Positions 37,113 to 44,336 of a DNA stretch of 64,000 bases are shown in pieces. Positions within the stretch are counted from its first letter, which is position 1; every line of letters begins with the position of its first letter. Source of the stretch: Acetoanaerobium noterae (GTDB lineage: Bacteria; Bacillota; Clostridia; Peptostreptococcales; Filifactoraceae); assembly GCF_900168025.1 (NCBI RefSeq), contig NZ_FUYN01000001.1:558001-622000 (forward strand), written 5' to 3'. Under the pieces are notes generated by a model, which was given only the letters and a program-made list of their open reading frames with translations, made no database searches and was not told the origin of the DNA. The position numbers were made by a program, and so were the translations under genes.

Positions 37113-37344
37113 ATTATTACTTATTCTCAATTCATCTCATCTCCATTTTTAATTAATTAATCTTATACAAAAACTCTCTCATATTCTGATATAATAATTA
37201 TTATACTACAAATAAGTAGTTGATTATTGAAAATTATTTTACAAAAAAAGAACTCCATCCATTAAGGCAACTAAAGATTGCCAGTGAGTCTCTAAAACCT
37301 TGCTTATCCACAATAAAAATCTATTAAATTGGAGGTATTATAAT

Positions 37345-37881
37345 ATGTATGCAGCATTCGAAGGACATAGTCCTGTAATTGATAATAAATGTTTTGTAGC
37401 TGATGGCTGTCAGGTCATTGGAAATGTAGAAATGTTAGAATACAGTAGCATTTGGTTTAACTCTGTAGCTAGAGCCGATGTAAATAAAATTTTGATTGGC
37501 AGATATTCTAATGTTCAAGATGGAAGTGTACTTCACTGTGATGATGACTATCCACTAATTATTGGCGATTATGTGACTGTAGGCCATAAAGCTATTCTTC
37601 ACGGCTGTACTATAGAAGACCATGTTCTAGTAGGCATGGGAGCTACTATACTAAACGGAGCGGTAATCGGAAGAGGAAGCATTATAGGTGCTGGAGCAGT
37701 AGTTAAGGAAAATATGGTAGTGCCACCATTTTCTATGCTTGCAGGTGTCCCTGCAAAAATTCTTAAACAACTTCCTGAGGATACTACTGCGCTCCATAAC
37801 CATGCTGTAAAGTATAAAACTCTATGGGCTAAAAGATATGCAATTTTGCCTGAAGATGATGGTGAAAGCTTCGAGGATTAA
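37345..37881 (+). CDS. Gamma-class carbonic anhydrase family protein
   Basis: A 178-residue left-handed beta-helix trimeric enzyme of the gamma-CA/YrdA type. Hexapeptide repeats run from about residue 15 to 145. Zinc-ligand histidines are in SVLHCDDD, TVGHKAILHGC and the following repeat; the tail is AKILKQLPEDT. It may hydrate CO2 or be a related acyltransferase. The longest frame starts at 37300; the ATG at 37345 has TTGGAGG nine bases upstream. Upstream lies a 232-base gap with a possible small hairpin (GGCAA/TTGCC near 37266-37282). A terminator follows. Confidence 0.88.
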   Translation: MYAAFEGHSPVIDNKCFVADGCQVIGNVEMLEYSSIWFNSVARADVNKILIGRYSNVQDGSVLHCDDDYPLIIGDYVTVGHKAILHGCTIEDHVLVGMGATILNGAVIGRGSIIGAGAVVKENMVVPPFSMLAGVPAKILKQLPEDTTALHNHAVKYKTLWAKRYAILPEDDGESFED

Positions 37882-37965: not shown

Positions 37966-37998
37966 AAAAAAAGGTAGTACATATGCACTACCTTTTTT
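37966..37998. terminator. Bidirectional terminator between gamma-CA and NifX-like genes
   Basis: AAAAAAGGTAGT pairs with ACTACCTTTTTT around a CATATG core. It is placed between the convergent stop codons. Confidence 0.88.
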
Positions 37999-38023: not shown

Positions 38024-38383
38024 CTAATGTCCACATCCATCGCCTTCATGCATATGGTCATGGCATACACTTCCTGTTGATTTTAGTTCACCACTTAAAT
38101 ATGCATTTATTGTATTTTCAAGTTCTCCCTGAGCTCCTATTATTACTTCAATGTTTTTTTCATTGAATATCTCAATAGCTCCTCCTCCCATTCCACCAGA
38201 AATTATTACATTAACTCCTTGCTCATGTAAAAATACTGGAAGGAATCCTGGTCTATGACCTGGGTTTTTAACTTTTTCAGAGCTTACTACTTCTTTGCCA
38301 TCCACTTCATAAATATGAAAGTGCTCACAGTGTCCAAAATGTTGTGTTACCATACCTCTGTCACTTGCAATTGCTATTTTCAT
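38024..38383 (-). CDS. NifX/NifB-associated (MTH1175-like) cofactor-binding protein, His/Cys-rich tail
   Basis: A 119-residue protein of the NifX/NafY superfamily: MKIAIASDRGMVTQHFGHCE at the start, FLPVFLHEQGVNVIISGG in the middle. The last 15 residues are rich in His, Cys and Asp (CHDHMHEGDGCGH), a likely metal-binding tail. Related proteins hold Fe-Mo cofactor precursors or the Mo-Cu orange-protein cluster. No nitrogenase gene is nearby. It is the last gene in a five-gene cluster with MinD-like ATPases and a GltB-like protein. AGGAGG precedes the ATG. Confidence 0.85.
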   Translation of the reverse strand: MKIAIASDRGMVTQHFGHCEHFHIYEVDGKEVVSSEKVKNPGHRPGFLPVFLHEQGVNVIISGGMGGGAIEIFNEKNIEVIIGAQGELENTINAYLSGELKSTGSVCHDHMHEGDGCGH

Positions 38384-38405
38384 AATCTTCCTCCTAAAAA
38401 TGTTT

Positions 38406-39950
38406 TTATTTTAATATTTTTGATAAACGCTTACTGTAGCTATCTAAACCACTTACCTCTGAAGCCAAAGCTGTCATAGGTAATATATCAGCTCTAGATA
38501 TATCCTTTATGTCAAATCTTCTATTAAGAGCCATGAGCTGTTTTACTCCTGTACTTACTCTTTCTAAATATGAGTAGACTCCTATAGCCCCTGCTGGAAG
38601 ACTCACAGCATCCTCATATATAGTTTTGAGTTGCTTAATGTCTTCAAAAATCTCTTCTTTAGTATTTCCAAATCGCTGTATGTCTGGGAAGATTTTGCCA
38701 TTATCAATAGCATTTCCCACATGTTTTCCTGATATTGCAGCCGCCATGGCAGCTCTTCCTATAGCTACAAAGTTAATATATGGAGCTCCAAGGGACAGAG
38801 CTTTATATACTTGATCTTCCATAGCTATACCACCAGTAATTGCAACTTGAACTTTATTATAGCCTTCACTATAGATTTTTTCTAAAAGTGCATATACTAT
38901 GCATTCTAGCTCTACTGTTGGGATTCCCCACTCATTCATCATTTTAACTGGACTATTTCCAGTTCCGCCGCCAGCTCCATCAAATGTAACCAGGTCAACT
39001 TCACACTTAGAGGCTATCTTTAATATTCTAAGTAAATCCTCAGGGTCAAATGGGCCTGTTTTAAAGCAAATTCTCTTTGCTCCTTTTTCTCTAAGCTCTG
39101 CAATTCTTTTTTCAAAATGGTCTTCATCCCAAACAGGTAATTTACCAATTCTTTCAAAAACTTGGCCAATTCCTGCTTTATAAGCTTCTGCAATTTTTGA
39201 ATCACTAGGATCAGGGTAAACCACATAGCCCATTTTTTGAAATTTAAGAGCATCGTTTATATCTTTAATTCTGCCCATTCCTTGTATGCCTTTTGCTGCT
39301 TGTCCAAACTTTATTTCTACAGATTCCACTCCTAATTTTTCTATGGCATAATCTAAAACTCCTAGATACTCATCATCCATATTGGCTTGAAGTATAATAT
39401 CTCCATAACCATGATAATAATTTCTAAATGTATCTACCATTTCTTTGATTAAGGGAGAATTTACAACTTTATTATGGTCTAGCTCAAGAGCTTTATCTTT
39501 AGCTACTACGTCCTCCCCTATAACTACAGGAACTCCAAACACTGCCGCTCCAGCATAGTAATCCTGCCAGTTTAACTTAGCAATCGCGGGTAATATATAG
39601 GGCCCTTTTACAGGTATAGGATTTTTTATGCCAAATGTAGTCTTTATTTCTGCTTTAGGATAGGTTACTTCATAAGGATCCATACTCTCGCCTTTTGCTT
39701 GAAAAACTCTTCCATTGATATTAAAATGAGAAAAATCAAGTGAGTATTCTTTTTCTGATGCAAATTGATTTATGTCTGTAGCATATGGATAAATTGCTTC
39801 TGAGCCTCTCACTGCTGATAGTCCTATTTCACATGGGCCTACGCAATTTGCAGTACATACACAGCACATGCCTGAGCTAAGTGATAGATTCTCTGGTGTC
39901 CTCATTTTAGTGTTTGATAAAGTACTTCCTAAAGAGATACGTTTAGACAT
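38406..39950 (-). CDS. GltB-like FMN-binding glutamate synthase family protein
   Basis: A 514-residue protein with the FMN-binding, central and partly C-terminal domain of glutamate synthase but no amidotransferase domain. It has GMCCVCTANCVGPCEIGLSA near the N-terminus, then KFGQAAKGIQGMGRI, LVTFDGAGGGTGNSPVKMMN and TGGIAMEDQVYKALSLGA. Archaeal-type GltB proteins have this form; the true reaction here is unknown. Its start is uncertain: the ATG at 39950 has GGTG six bases upstream and overlaps the ATPase gene by eight bases; longer GTG/ATG starts exist to 39968. It is fourth in the NifX-MinD cluster. Confidence 0.85.
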   Translation of the reverse strand: MSKRISLGSTLSNTKMRTPENLSLSSGMCCVCTANCVGPCEIGLSAVRGSEAIYPYATDINQFASEKEYSLDFSHFNINGRVFQAKGESMDPYEVTYPKAEIKTTFGIKNPIPVKGPYILPAIAKLNWQDYYAGAAVFGVPVVIGEDVVAKDKALELDHNKVVNSPLIKEMVDTFRNYYHGYGDIILQANMDDEYLGVLDYAIEKLGVESVEIKFGQAAKGIQGMGRIKDINDALKFQKMGYVVYPDPSDSKIAEAYKAGIGQVFERIGKLPVWDEDHFEKRIAELREKGAKRICFKTGPFDPEDLLRILKIASKCEVDLVTFDGAGGGTGNSPVKMMNEWGIPTVELECIVYALLEKIYSEGYNKVQVAITGGIAMEDQVYKALSLGAPYINFVAIGRAAMAAAISGKHVGNAIDNGKIFPDIQRFGNTKEEIFEDIKQLKTIYEDAVSLPAGAIGVYSYLERVSTGVKQLMALNRRFDIKDISRADILPMTALASEVSGLDSYSKRLSKILK

Positions 39951-40824
39951 TTTTAGCACCATCCTCACATTTTATAAAATTTAATATATTAGCTATAATA
40001 TTTTTTACTGCTTTTCCAGAAACTGTATCTTCATCTATTATGCTTTTGCCTTCATTTATAGCTTTTACAGCCTTGCTATCAAAAGGAATATTTCCTACAA
40101 AAGGTATATTTTTCTGTATGCAATATTCTTCTATTTCCTCTGCTTTTTTTATATTGGTGTTATATTTATTGATACAAACAGCAACTTTAGTTTTGAAATG
40201 ATTTGCTGTTTCTATTATTCTTTTCATATCACTAATTCCTGAAATAGAAGGCTCTGAAACTATAAGAACAAAATCTACTCCTGTAATAGATGCTATTACT
40301 GGGCATCCTATGCCAGGAGAACCATCAATAATAACTATCTCATCAGTGACTAGATTATCTCTTAATCCTTTTTTGACCTCAGATACTAACATTCCAGATG
40401 TTCCGCTGCCCATCTTTAGCTCTGCTGTAGAAAAAACAGCATCTGACTTATATAGCATAAGCTCTCCAGCTACATCTTTTTTCATAGTGATGGCATTTAC
40501 CGGGCAGACATATTCACAAAGACTACAGCCTTCACATGCAAAAGGATTTACTTTGTAATCTGATTCATTTTCTATGGCATCAAATCTGCATTTTTCCATG
40601 CAAAACCCACAACTGATACATTTTTCAGAATCAATTACAGCTTTATCCATACCATAATAATTTGAACTTATTTTATTTGTGTTTTGATGCATAAGCAAAT
40701 GCAAATTAGGAGCATCCACATCGCAGTCAGCATAACCTTTTGCATTTGAAAGCTTAATAAATGCTGTAGCTACTGTAGTTTTACCTGTTCCACCTTTACC
40801 GCTAAGAATTAATAATTGCTTCAT
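39943..40824 (-). CDS. MinD-superfamily ATPase with inserted ferredoxin domain (second of pair)
   Basis: A 293-residue P-loop ATPase. The deviant Walker A LSGKGGTGKTTVATAF is at residues 6-21. A two-[4Fe-4S] ferredoxin insert lies at about 60-115 (CISCGFCMEKCRFDAI and CEGCSLCEYVCPVNAI), followed by the Walker B-like EIVIIDGSPGIGCPV. This matches the paired Fe-S ATPases of the orange-protein (ORP) type operon and the MinD-like families seen with NifX-like proteins in anaerobes. It overlaps the previous ATPase by 23 bases. AGGAGG precedes the ATG. Probably it assembles or moves a metal cluster using ATP; this is inference. Confidence 0.85.
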   Translation of the reverse strand: MKQLLILSGKGGTGKTTVATAFIKLSNAKGYADCDVDAPNLHLLMHQNTNKISSNYYGMDKAVIDSEKCISCGFCMEKCRFDAIENESDYKVNPFACEGCSLCEYVCPVNAITMKKDVAGELMLYKSDAVFSTAELKMGSGTSGMLVSEVKKGLRDNLVTDEIVIIDGSPGIGCPVIASITGVDFVLIVSEPSISGISDMKRIIETANHFKTKVAVCINKYNTNIKKAEEIEEYCIQKNIPFVGNIPFDSKAVKAINEGKSIIDEDTVSGKAVKNIIANILNFIKCEDGAKNV

Positions 40825-41671
40825 TTTGAGCCTCCTTAGTGATATCAGTTAACAGCTTTACAAATAAGTCATGATAACGCCTGTTTTCTTTAGAAACTAT
40901 TTTCCCATCAGAGTTGAGTTTTCCAAGCTCAACATCAAATGGAATTTCGCTTAATATTTTTATTTTATTATTTTCGCAAAATTCCTTTGAGGGATTGAAT
41001 CCATCTTGAGCTTTATTTAGAACAACACCAAAAGGTTTTTTAAATAATCTTACTAAATCATAAACCATCTTTAGATTATGACTACCAAACAATGTAGGTT
41101 CAGCTACTAGTAGGCAGTAATCAGCATCTTTTATGCTTTCCATAACTATGCAGGCACTGCCTGGTGGACAATCTACAATAGTAACTTGCTCATTTATATT
41201 TTCATTTTCTATCATAGCTTTTATTATAGGAACTCCTGAAGCTTCTCCCGTGTTTAATATACCTGACACAACTGTAACATCTTCTAGATTACCTTTTTCT
41301 ATTTTCCCTATCGATTTATTAATTTCAGATATCGCACTTTCAGGGCAAATTTCCATACATCCTCCACAAGAGTGGCAAACTTCACTAAATACTTTTACTT
41401 TGTTATTTATGTAAGCTAAAGCGTTAAATTTACAAAAATCTACACATTTCCTGCATCCATTGCAAAGGTAGTCATTCACATATGGAATTTTTACCGATAC
41501 ATCTTCTTTAGTCAAGTTATCGGGTTTGAAAAAAAGATGGCCATTTGGTTCTTCTACATCACAATCTAAATAAAGAGCCTTTTTCGCAGTGTAAGCTAAG
41601 TTTACAGAAACTAAAGTTTTACCAGTACCACCCTTACCGCTAAGGACTGCAATTTTGAGCCTACTTTCCAT
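40802..41671 (-). CDS. MinD-superfamily ATPase with inserted ferredoxin domain (first of pair)
   Basis: A 289-residue paralogue of the downstream ATPase. Walker A VLSGKGGTGKTLVSVNLAYT is near the N-terminus. The ferredoxin insert has CNGCRKCVDFCKFNAL and CHSCGGCMEICPESAI, then VTIVDCPPGSACIV. The pair may form a heterodimer; similar pairs occur with ORP-type proteins. The longest frame starts at 41689, but the ATG at 41671 has AAGGA ten bases upstream; both overlap the NifX-like gene end. It sits second in the cluster. Confidence 0.85.
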   Translation of the reverse strand: MESRLKIAVLSGKGGTGKTLVSVNLAYTAKKALYLDCDVEEPNGHLFFKPDNLTKEDVSVKIPYVNDYLCNGCRKCVDFCKFNALAYINNKVKVFSEVCHSCGGCMEICPESAISEINKSIGKIEKGNLEDVTVVSGILNTGEASGVPIIKAMIENENINEQVTIVDCPPGSACIVMESIKDADYCLLVAEPTLFGSHNLKMVYDLVRLFKKPFGVVLNKAQDGFNPSKEFCENNKIKILSEIPFDVELGKLNSDGKIVSKENRRYHDLFVKLLTDITKEAQNEAIINS

Positions 41672-42026
41672 GATTATGCATTCCTTCATGAATTTCAGTC
41701 AGTTCATTAAGCTTTCCAGCTTCATAAGCTTCTAAATTGGATTTTATGGAGTCCCCTTGAGTTTTGTACATTTTAATATTCGCTCCATTAATCACATCCG
41801 CAGCATTTCCTCCGCATCTTGGAGTAAGTAGTACATCAATTTTTCTATCAACTAAGCTTTGAGCCGCTTTTATTCCAGCTCCTCCTGGGCTAGATGCAGC
41901 TTCATTGTCAAAAAACTCAGCTTCTTTTGAGTCAGTATCATATATCATATAATATGGAGTTCTTCCAAACGATATGCAAACCTTTGACTCTATGTTCTTT
42001 TCATCTACTGGTATAGCTATTTTCAT
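41661..42026 (-). CDS. NifX/MTH1175-like cofactor-binding protein
   Basis: A 121-residue NifX-superfamily protein beginning MKIAIPVDEKNIESKVCISF, with AASSPGGAGIKAAQSLVDRK and ending in a histidine-rich tail (EIHEGMHNHGK). It is the first gene of the NifX-MinD-MinD-GltB-NifX cluster and overlaps the first ATPase gene by 11 bases. Related orange proteins bind a Mo-Cu-S cluster; NifX binds iron-molybdenum precursors. Which one this binds cannot be told. AGGAG precedes the ATG. Confidence 0.85.
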   Translation of the reverse strand: MKIAIPVDEKNIESKVCISFGRTPYYMIYDTDSKEAEFFDNEAASSPGGAGIKAAQSLVDRKIDVLLTPRCGGNAADVINGANIKMYKTQGDSIKSNLEAYEAGKLNELTEIHEGMHNHGK

Positions 42027-42216
42027 GCTTTCATCTCCTATTATTTCTTTATTGGCATATGCCTTTTATATTTTTGATTATACTCTTATAATTTTTGATG
42101 TCAATAAAAGTTTTTAGCATATGCTATTTAATCTTTATAGAATAGCTTTATGATTCTTGATATAATCTGAAAATCAATTTTTTTAAAGCAAGCATTATTT
42201 TTTTGCAAAAAATAAA

Positions 42217-43127: not shown

Positions 43128-44336
43128 TTATTTGACAACCTCTGACATCAAGCTAGTGTAAAAAGCAATTATATCTTCTTTAGTTTCAAAGCTTCCCTGT
43201 ACCTTATCTTTTGAACCTCCGCCTTTTCCATTATAGGTTTTTATATTTGATTTAAAAAACTGTCCTAGATTTATGGCATCATTTTTTGTAACAGCAGTAA
43301 TCTTATTATCAATCGTAGTTGCAAGAATAACTGTATTTGATTTTTCAAGCAAAATAGACTCTATATGAGCTAGTGTAGGAAAATCTATATCGTCAAAAAT
43401 AAGAGCTATCGTTTCATCGGCCTTTATATTAAGTGAAATATTTTTTGCAAGATCTTTTCTTATTATATCACTTTGCTTCTTTAACGCAGATATATCTTCT
43501 CTTTGCTTTTGTACCTTCGTCAAAATCATTGATTCTTCTGCTGAAAGTTCCTTTTTTAATGATTTAATAATATCGTTTTTTTCTCTATAATCGTTTAGGG
43601 CTCTATATCCACATAGGAAAGAAATCCTAGTCATTCCCTTATACGATTCTGCTTTTATTATTTTAATTATACCCACTTCTCCTAGATTTCTTACATGAGT
43701 TCCACAGCATGCACAGCAATCAGCTTCACCCATAGATACTACTCTTATATCTTCCTCAGCAGTTATTTCTTTTCTTATTGGGTATGCTTTTAAGCCTTCT
43801 GTGTCTGTAACTATCTGGTCTACTTTTTGATTTTCAAAAATATATCTATTGGTTTCCTTTTCTGCCTCAGTCAGCATCTCTTCTGTCATATCTTTTATAT
43901 TGATATCTATAGTTACAAATTGCTCTCCAATATGAAAGCCCTTGTTAGCTCCACCAAATAATTTTAGAATGACTCCAGAAAGAGCATGTTCTCCAGAGTG
44001 TTGCTGCATAAAATCAAATCGCCTGTGAAAATCTATCTTGCAATTAACTTTTGAACTTTTAGGAAGCTCATTTACATAATGATACACAATCCCATCTTTT
44101 TCTTTTACATCAAAAACTGGTATTTCTTCTATTTCTCCTCTATCGCTGGGTTGTCCCCCACCTTCTGGATAAAATAATGTTTCATCAAGTACAATTTTAT
44201 AAAAATCTTTATCCTTAAGTATAGCTACTATATTAGAACTTGCCTCTATCATGTATGGATTAAAATAATATAGTTTATTTGTAGGATTAAGGGTAGCTAT
44301 ATCTACTTCAAAAAAGTCATTTAATTCATTATTCAT
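43128..44336 (-). CDS. Alanyl-tRNA editing protein (AlaX-L type)
   Basis: A 402-residue trans-editing protein homologous to the AlaRS editing domain. N-terminal part: FYPEGGGQPSDRG. The zinc-bound editing site includes QQHSGEHALSG (HxxxH) and DCCACCGTHVRNLGEVG (Cys-His). The C-terminal part (about 260-400) is a DHHA1-like domain with a coiled-coil linker (KKELSAEESMILTKVQKQRE) and NGKGGGSKDKVQGS. It hydrolyses Ser- or Gly-mischarged tRNA-Ala. AGGAGAG precedes the ATG. Sixteen bases separate it from the xth gene. Confidence 0.9.
   Translation of the reverse strand: MNNELNDFFEVDIATLNPTNKLYYFNPYMIEASSNIVAILKDKDFYKIVLDETLFYPEGGGQPSDRGEIEEIPVFDVKEKDGIVYHYVNELPKSSKVNCKIDFHRRFDFMQQHSGEHALSGVILKLFGGANKGFHIGEQFVTIDINIKDMTEEMLTEAEKETNRYIFENQKVDQIVTDTEGLKAYPIRKEITAEEDIRVVSMGEADCCACCGTHVRNLGEVGIIKIIKAESYKGMTRISFLCGYRALNDYREKNDIIKSLKKELSAEESMILTKVQKQREDISALKKQSDIIRKDLAKNISLNIKADETIALIFDDIDFPTLAHIESILLEKSNTVILATTIDNKITAVTKNDAINLGQFFKSNIKTYNGKGGGSKDKVQGSFETKEDIIAFYTSLMSEVVK

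Follow-up and report, generated by a model that had tools for sequence, protein, structure and literature searches.

A clostridial ORP/MrpORP-type gene module and its probable link to a GltB-like flavoprotein in Acetoanaerobium noterae

A stretch of 64,000 nucleotides from Acetoanaerobium noterae (contig NZ_FUYN01000001.1, positions 558,001 to 622,000), referred to here as the window, contains five adjacent genes that encode two small proteins (NifX1 and NifX2), two ATPases (ATPase-1 and ATPase-2) and a GltB-like protein, here called G. We found that these genes probably represent a clostridial metal-sulfur module of the orange protein (ORP)/MrpORP type together with G, a GltB-like Fe-S flavoprotein, under one shared regulator. 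The module is of a known kind. The palindrome regulon and the joining of a GltB-like flavoprotein to the module are not described in the literature searched: no description of a GltB-like gene linked with ORP, NifX or DUF134 was found there, none of the titles listed for the palindrome strings concerns this system, and DUF134 was named in two unrelated papers only. Purification and a partial characterisation of the ORP complex have been achieved, and G, which co-occurs with the module and is often co-regulated with it, is a concrete candidate for its client or partner.

The ORP/MrpORP-type module

Both ATPases were found in Pfam to consist of a CbiA domain with 4Fe-4S motifs. ATPase-1 has the deviant Walker A GKGGTGKT, the eight ferredoxin cysteines were kept in the alignments of both ATPases, and C174, seven residues past the switch-II (Walker-B-type) Asp, was conserved in both, a spacing that presumably resembles Asp125/Cys132 of NifH. 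The Walker A, the two ferredoxin motifs and the Cys after the switch-II Asp are shared with the COG1149-type ferredoxin-inserted ATPases and, presumably, NifH. Unlike NifH, the ATPases have no nitrogenase partner in this genome: PF00148 (nitrogenase-type) gave no match in the 99.92%-complete assembly, as the preliminary description of this DNA had supposed, and matched in four of 14 control genomes.

The two small proteins matched PF02579 (E 1e-23 and 6e-22), and no further gene of this family was found in the genome. NifX1 matched 1RDU, which we take to be TM1816, at 2.6e-18, MTH1175 at 2.7e-17 and ORP 2WFB at 3e-7. NifX2 covered positions 265-365 of NF041136 (MrpORP) with about 119 bits (118.9-119.4). 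Against TIGR02663 (NifX) it reached 20.2 bits, the cut-off being 112, and the NCBIfam search listed no TIGR02663 match for NifX1; with this model below its cut-off and PF00148 absent from the genome, a true NifX identity was rejected for both small proteins. The HFGHC of NifX2 was kept in 100% of 27 alignment rows; the window protein does not have the first Cys of CXHFGHCE, and its end motif is CHDH. The Di-Nase domain of MrpORP is described in the available part of PMC6345978 as holding a [3Fe-4S] cluster and having the conserved motifs CXHFGHCE and CDH, to which the HFGHCE and CHDH of NifX2 correspond, and MrpORP as passing its cluster to Orp3/Orp4/Orp8 proteins. The tails noted earlier as His-rich, one of them also Cys-rich, are real and conserved, with H113 and H117 of NifX1 in 93% of 33 rows, C107 and H110 of NifX2 in 100% and its H112 and C117 in 92% of the 27 rows. 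Judged by these matches, NifX1 is MTH1175/ORP-like and NifX2 is MrpORP Di-Nase-like. Of the earlier reading as two NifX-MTH1175-like proteins, the MTH1175 part holds for NifX1, and the NifX label has to be given up for both.

Two features that mark an ORP system were present, namely two MinD-type ATPases with two 4Fe-4S motifs each, and a single-domain Orp8-like Di-Nase protein (NifX1). Like the ORP complex of Desulfovibrio vulgaris, the A. noterae system combines these with an MrpORP-type Di-Nase domain and an Mrp in the genome. Unlike in that complex, MrpORP is split over two genes instead of forming one two-domain protein: NifX2 lies in the window, and Mrp, the partner of the ATPases, is encoded on contig 7 next to a DUF134 gene (NTPase half, NF041136 positions 2-234, 307.9 bits). 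Neither part reaches the 450-bit cut-off of NF041136. A single 406-aa open reading frame (ORF) in one relative (L023) is a fused Mrp + NifX, as in MrpORP, and three other loci (L148, L150, L155) have a 394-429 aa Mrp ORF at the place expected for Mrp and NifX2. The orp genes of D. vulgaris form two divergent operons, against one operon here, and their control by sigma54, DVU2106 and IHF, as given in the available part of PMC3897727, differs from the sigma70 promoter and palindromes of the window. G is not in the ORP member list in the part of PMC6345978 available to us, in line with the earlier placing of the GltB-like member outside the described ORP operon.

In all 13 ATPase loci from order-level relatives (L144-L156), ATPase-1 was grouped with NifX1, ATPase-2, NifX2 and/or Mrp; in one of them (L149) only DUF5320, NifX1 and ATPase-1 were visible. 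The loci were often headed by DUF5320 and DUF134. Because the grouping recurs in 13/13 loci, with G adjoining in several genera, it is not due to chance. From their homology, NifX1, ATPase-1, ATPase-2 and NifX2 are identified as the clostridial form of the known ORP/MrpORP Fe-S module, which bears out the ORP-type assignment of the preliminary description.

Other genes were also seen at these loci. An IscU-like scaffold gene adjoins the module in L039, L051, L060 and L154. An ORF resembling the metallo-beta-lactamase fold, named by eye, lies beside DUF134 in L209 and between ATPase-2 and NifX2 in L146.

The GltB-like flavoprotein G

G matched Glu_synthase (PF01645, E 7e-13) in Pfam, and no GATase (glutaminase) match was found there in its 514 aa. 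There was no match at 1e-3 in NCBIfam or, by phmmer, in the PDB, and a profile search for solved relatives gave chance-level barrel matches only (best E 0.01, to a designed protein). At 1e-3 a single G was found in the genome, which has no full-length canonical GltB, its other PF01645 matches being weak (at most 32.0 bits). The AlphaFold2 model of G (predicted local distance difference test, pLDDT, 85.5; predicted template modelling score 0.88) has a barrel of the flavin mononucleotide (FMN) type. Foldseek gave lactate monooxygenase as the best match (1.4e-10) and glutamate synthase 1llw at 2.7e-9, and VIA-align gave Z up to 25.4 for 279 residues at 3.2 A. Glycolate oxidase and isopentenyl diphosphate isomerase were tied there at Z ~25, and identity with either was rejected as reflecting the barrel fold only.

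With hhalign, EIKFGQAAK, the FKTG Lys and GGGTGNSP of G were aligned to canonical GltB at a weak score (prob 24, E 8.5e-4); K214, Q217, K220 and K297, invariant in 76 rows, are aligned to canonical GltB in this weak profile match. G is therefore like GltB in its FMN barrel fold and in keeping EIKxxQxAK, the Lys before the DGAGGG stretch and GGTGxSP, and unlike it in having neither the glutaminase nor the central domain. In GltB the cysteines that hold the 3Fe-4S cluster are on the C-terminal side, inside the FMN domain or close to it. They are not kept in G, whose only invariant Cys are the N-terminal C29, C32, C36 and C40 (76 rows). The four N-terminal cysteines were kept in 80/80 G homologues, spaced as CX2CX3CX3CE in 77; L061 has CD instead of CE, and in L082 and L084 the middle gap is one residue shorter. 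The same motif occurs in eight remote relatives (36-38% identity). It presumably resembles CODH or hybrid-cluster motifs; a CODH-like reading was rejected, as a Pfam search with the N-terminal 115 residues gave no family match with an E of 1 or less. GltS carries FMN and a [3Fe-4S] cluster, according to the available part of PMC8097209. By sequence comparison, G retains the FMN and 2-oxo-acid end of GltS, without the glutaminase and with a different presumed cluster site.

Association of G with the module

We surveyed the loci of the best 80 of 210 G relatives from genome contigs, many with short flanks. An ATPase gene was present in the fetched flank of 15/80 loci, and Mrp without an ATPase in three (L041, L053, L055). 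Where at least 5 kb was available on both sides, the ATPase was linked in 10/39 loci, and in 10/20 when G was at least 56% identical to that of the window. The chance of a G-ATPase distance within 5 kb is ~0.4% per genome. Leaving aside generic ABC ATPases, which were seen in 16 loci, G had as its most frequent neighbours NifX1-type proteins (16), Mrp (15) and the ATPases (14), followed by DUF134 (11) and NifX2 (10). Relative to the block, G occupies one of four places. It precedes NifX1 in Sedimentibacter and others, stands between ATPase-2 and NifX2 in the window and Fusibacter bizertensis and between Mrp and NifX2 in Acidaminobacter, and follows NifX2 in Tissierella praeacuta. The conservation beyond close strains that was to be looked for in such a survey thus exists for gene content and not for gene order. 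On the tree of G the linkage label takes 11 changes, six of them forced by starred branches in a quick method. G is genuinely, though only loosely, tied to the module.

In a class-level sample of 393 genomes, G was detected in 19 (threshold E 1e-60) and ATPase-1 in 77 (threshold E 1e-45). The ATPase was present in 18/19 G-bearing genomes compared to 59/374 others (Fisher 5e-13). Eight of the 19 carry remote 36-38% relatives; among the other 11 the ATPase was found in 10, once by a partial match (G206), the exception being G074. Carbon monoxide dehydrogenase (CODH), used as a control, was present in 83 genomes and showed a weaker association (9/19 with G and 74/374 without, p 0.008). Shuffling within families of 59 relatives, with the G007 fragment counted as G and the weak G052 match left out, gave 10 observed co-occurrences against 6.3 expected (p 0.005). 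Neighbourhood, genome co-occurrence and the shared promoter palindrome described below all support the functional tie that had been proposed for G.

The A. noterae genome itself encodes a CO dehydrogenase catalytic subunit (contig 4, 34139-35980; TIGR01702).

A shared palindrome

In 200-base windows upstream of module and G genes, ACATATGT ranked first among all 8-base palindromes, with 48/80 occurrences against 3.2 expected, and GCATATGC, the type of the window, ranked second (12/47, 1.9 expected). This enrichment is unbiased as to sequence, and its Poisson statistics ignore the kinship of loci. The long form of the palindrome is TTATTGACATATGTCAATAA, often in two copies 34-40 bases apart; the window promoter is flanked by the variant sites GGCATATGCC and AGCATATGCT. 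TTATTGACATATGTCAATAA-type sites scoring at least 15/20 were found upstream of 7/15 linked G. Upstream of unlinked G they were found in 13/63 cases compared to 5/782 for other genes of the same loci (Fisher 4e-12), a comparison that is not independent since the consensus was drawn partly from these loci. Twelve of the 13 sites have the CATATG core, and several of the 13 are mutually close relatives. Two of the five control sites (L023, L044) also have this core.

The core sites in 94 loci lay within 300 bases of a family gene in 73/83 cases by automatic count, and five of the remaining ten were upstream of DUF5320-like ORFs. Genome-wide in 59 relatives, 59 sites with up to 3 mismatches were found, compared to 18 for the reversed pattern; 10/13 sites with up to 2 mismatches were upstream of module, DUF134 or DUF5320 genes. 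Twenty further sites were fetched (two with 2 mismatches, several with 3), of which 11 precede module-family genes and nine do not. The palindrome gives a direct handle on when anaerobes use the module.

Possible extra members of the regulon were seen in two loci: in L023 (7911) the palindrome is upstream of a permease-like ORF, and in L044 (15752) it is flanked by a lipoprotein-like ORF on one side and peroxiredoxin-like ORFs on the other. In L185 an operator-like site with 2 mismatches (1501-1520) is located ~2.5 kb before the module, upstream of a 461-aa ORF resembling a radical S-adenosylmethionine (SAM) SCIFF maturase; a similar ORF adjoins the module in L044.

DUF134 as candidate regulator

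The operator TTGACA-TA-TGTCAA is an inverted repeat of TTGACA, the -35 hexamer, which is the hexamer read by sigma region 4. DUF134 proteins matched Sigma70_r4_2 at 1e-5 to 7e-5, and the palindrome is often found in front of the DUF134 gene. Recognition helices of the type (A/S)R(T/A)T paired with ACATATG sites in 20/20 loci sharing DUF134 and CATATG. Helices of the type SR(Q/G)TFQ paired with GC-type sites in 3/3 cases (L062, L156 and the window genome), where the window genome is counted via its CAAATG site and the window pair; one more locus, L129, had no site. These pairing counts ignore phylogeny. Because the operator precedes DUF134, DUF134 resembles Sigma70_r4 and the helix type tracks the operator type, DUF134 is likely the regulator of the module and G set.

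In a wider form, which we put forward tentatively, the DUF134 family would be sigma-region-4-like regulators, perhaps sensing metal or Fe-S, that sit as dimers on facing -35 hexamers (TTGACA-TA-TGTCAA). The clostridial metal-sulfur regulon under their control would comprise Mrp and DUF5320, the ORP ATPases, NifX-like carriers and an Fe-S flavoenzyme of a new class, which combines CX2CX3CX3C with a GltB-type FMN barrel and works with the ORP complex. DUF134 would gain its first function if this is true.

The role of G

In our view G is most likely co-regulated with the module and acts as its client or redox partner, not as a core assembly factor; this role is preferred because G and the module each occur without the other. 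In the proposed mechanism, ATP-gated dimer changes would let the ATPase pair and Mrp build Fe-S (or other metal-sulfur) clusters or transfer them, and NifX1 and NifX2 would use their His/Cys motifs to keep clusters or deliver them. G would bind a cluster on its N-terminal CX2CX3CX3C and FMN in the barrel with K214, Q217, K220 and K297; its predicted activity is electron chemistry at low potential, with a substrate of the 2-oxo or amino acid-like type. DUF134 would set the expression of the whole set by binding TTGACA-TA-TGTCAA. The module may modify or supply G, as suggested in the preliminary description.

Several observations weigh against such a partnership. Outside the group at least 56% identical to the window G, 0/19 assessable G loci were linked and few G have an upstream palindrome. 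The fetched stretches of 10 G loci from order-level relatives had no ATPase or NifX gene (0/10), one of them (L015) having Mrp 2.7 kb away; a chance juxtaposition, read from this first survey, was overturned by the wider survey of 80 loci. The operator is missing near G in several linked and clade-mate loci. Even with 3 mismatches to the consensus allowed, the whole A. noterae genome yielded no site, and the site of its own DUF134-Mrp operon is TAATTAGCAAATGCCAATAA, with CAAATG in place of CATATG. The Cys region of G was modelled with low confidence, at pLDDT 52-63, and residues 1-17 at less than 50. G was absent from 59/77 ATPase-bearing genomes of the class-level sample, and 16/50 genomes with unlinked G, many of them metagenome-assembled and of unstated completeness, had no ATPase match at 1e-40, which argues that G can act without the ATPase. 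Neither G nor the module depends strictly on the other.

These missing ATPases (16/50) also speak for a different explanation, by which G is an independent enzyme of amino-acid/nitrogen metabolism, a glutaminase-free GltS relative of amino-acid fermenters, that stands near the module only because both share an ecology and a regulator responsive to iron or redox state. The unlinked G loci in Bacteroidota, Synergistota, Spirochaetota and Fusobacteria, the likewise enriched CODH as an unrelated anaerobe marker, the GltS FMN-barrel residues kept in G and the lack of a canonical GltB in the genome fit it as well. However, the association holds within families (p 0.005), module families are the most recurrent specific neighbours of G, and the palindrome is nearly limited to promoters of module, DUF134, DUF5320 and G genes (73/83), and we regard the explanation as possible but unlikely.

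It is unlikely that the small proteins store thioferrate in an IssA-like way or carry an ORP-like Mo-Cu-S cluster, with the module handling metal sulfides under sulfidic conditions and not ordinary Fe-S cluster making. NifX1 is nearest to MTH1175, 1RDU and ORP 2WFB, but NifX2 has the motifs of the MrpORP Di-Nase domain, for which [3Fe-4S] was reported. The available part of PMC6345978 tells of the Mo-Cu-S cluster of ORP and the thioferrate storage of IssA, and attributes thioferrate binding to the cationic tail of IssA, whereas the tails here are His-rich.

Very unlikely, finally, is G as a dedicated assembly factor whose FMN would provide the electrons for cluster building or reduction on the ATPases or NifX-like proteins: its place in the Mrp slot between ATPase-2 and NifX2 (the window and F. 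bizertensis), its translational coupling with ATPase-2 and the shared operator agree with this, but 59/77 module-bearing genomes have no G, G occurs without the ATPase, and many loci carry both Mrp and G, which rules out G as a replacement for Mrp.

Operon layout and neighbouring genes

The five ORFs are all on the minus strand, transcribed from 42026 to 38024 in the order NifX1, ATPase-1, ATPase-2, G, NifX2, and form a predicted single transcription unit, whose sigma70 promoter has a palindrome on either side (Table 1). With internal ATG starts taken, the overlaps are 11 bases for NifX1/ATPase-1 (41661-41671), 23 for ATPase-1/ATPase-2 (40802-40824) and 8 for ATPase-2/G (39943-39950), exactly as first described, and a gap of 22 bases separates G from NifX2. 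A promoter scan gave 30 promoter-like sites compared to 22.2 expected in shuffles, the one before NifX1 being the sole 12/12 match. With up to 2 mismatches allowed, no -24/-12-like sigma54 match was found in front of the operon, and sigma54 control was rejected in favour of this promoter.

Table 1. Features of the five-gene operon, in window positions.
Feature	Position	Strand	Basis or remark
Operator-like palindrome AGCATATGCT	42116..42125	.	Upstream of -35; variant of the TTATTGACATATGTCAATAA palindrome
Sigma70 promoter TTGACA-16-TATAAT	42077..42104	minus	12/12 match, precedes NifX1
Operator-like palindrome GGCATATGCC inside TTATTGGCATATGCC	42054..42063	.	Between -10 and NifX1 start
NifX1, PF02579, MTH1175/ORP-like, 121 aa, His tail	41661..42026	minus	Pfam, structure-sequence matches, alignment
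ATPase-1, Orp3/Orp4-type, MinD fold and two 4Fe-4S motifs	40802..41671	minus	Pfam, alignment
ATPase-2, Orp3/Orp4-type, architecture as ATPase-1	39943..40824	minus	Pfam, alignment
G, GltB-like FMN barrel protein, 514 aa, without glutaminase domain	38406..39950	minus	Pfam, fold, alignment
N-terminal Cys motif of G, C29-x2-C32-x3-C36-x3-C40-E	39831..39866	minus	Homologue alignments
NifX2, stand-alone MrpORP-type Di-Nase domain, HFGHCE and CHDHMH...C motifs	38024..38383	minus	NF041136 match
Terminator-like hairpin with flanking A and T runs	37969..37996	.	Seen by eye; not returned by the scan

The hairpin separates the end of the operon from a convergent gene (37300-37881) for a gamma-carbonic-anhydrase-like hexapeptide protein, which scored 166.8 bits against NF050158 (cut-off 250). 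Elsewhere in the window, an AlaX-like alanyl-tRNA editing protein with a DHHA1 match at its C-terminus is encoded at 43128-44336.

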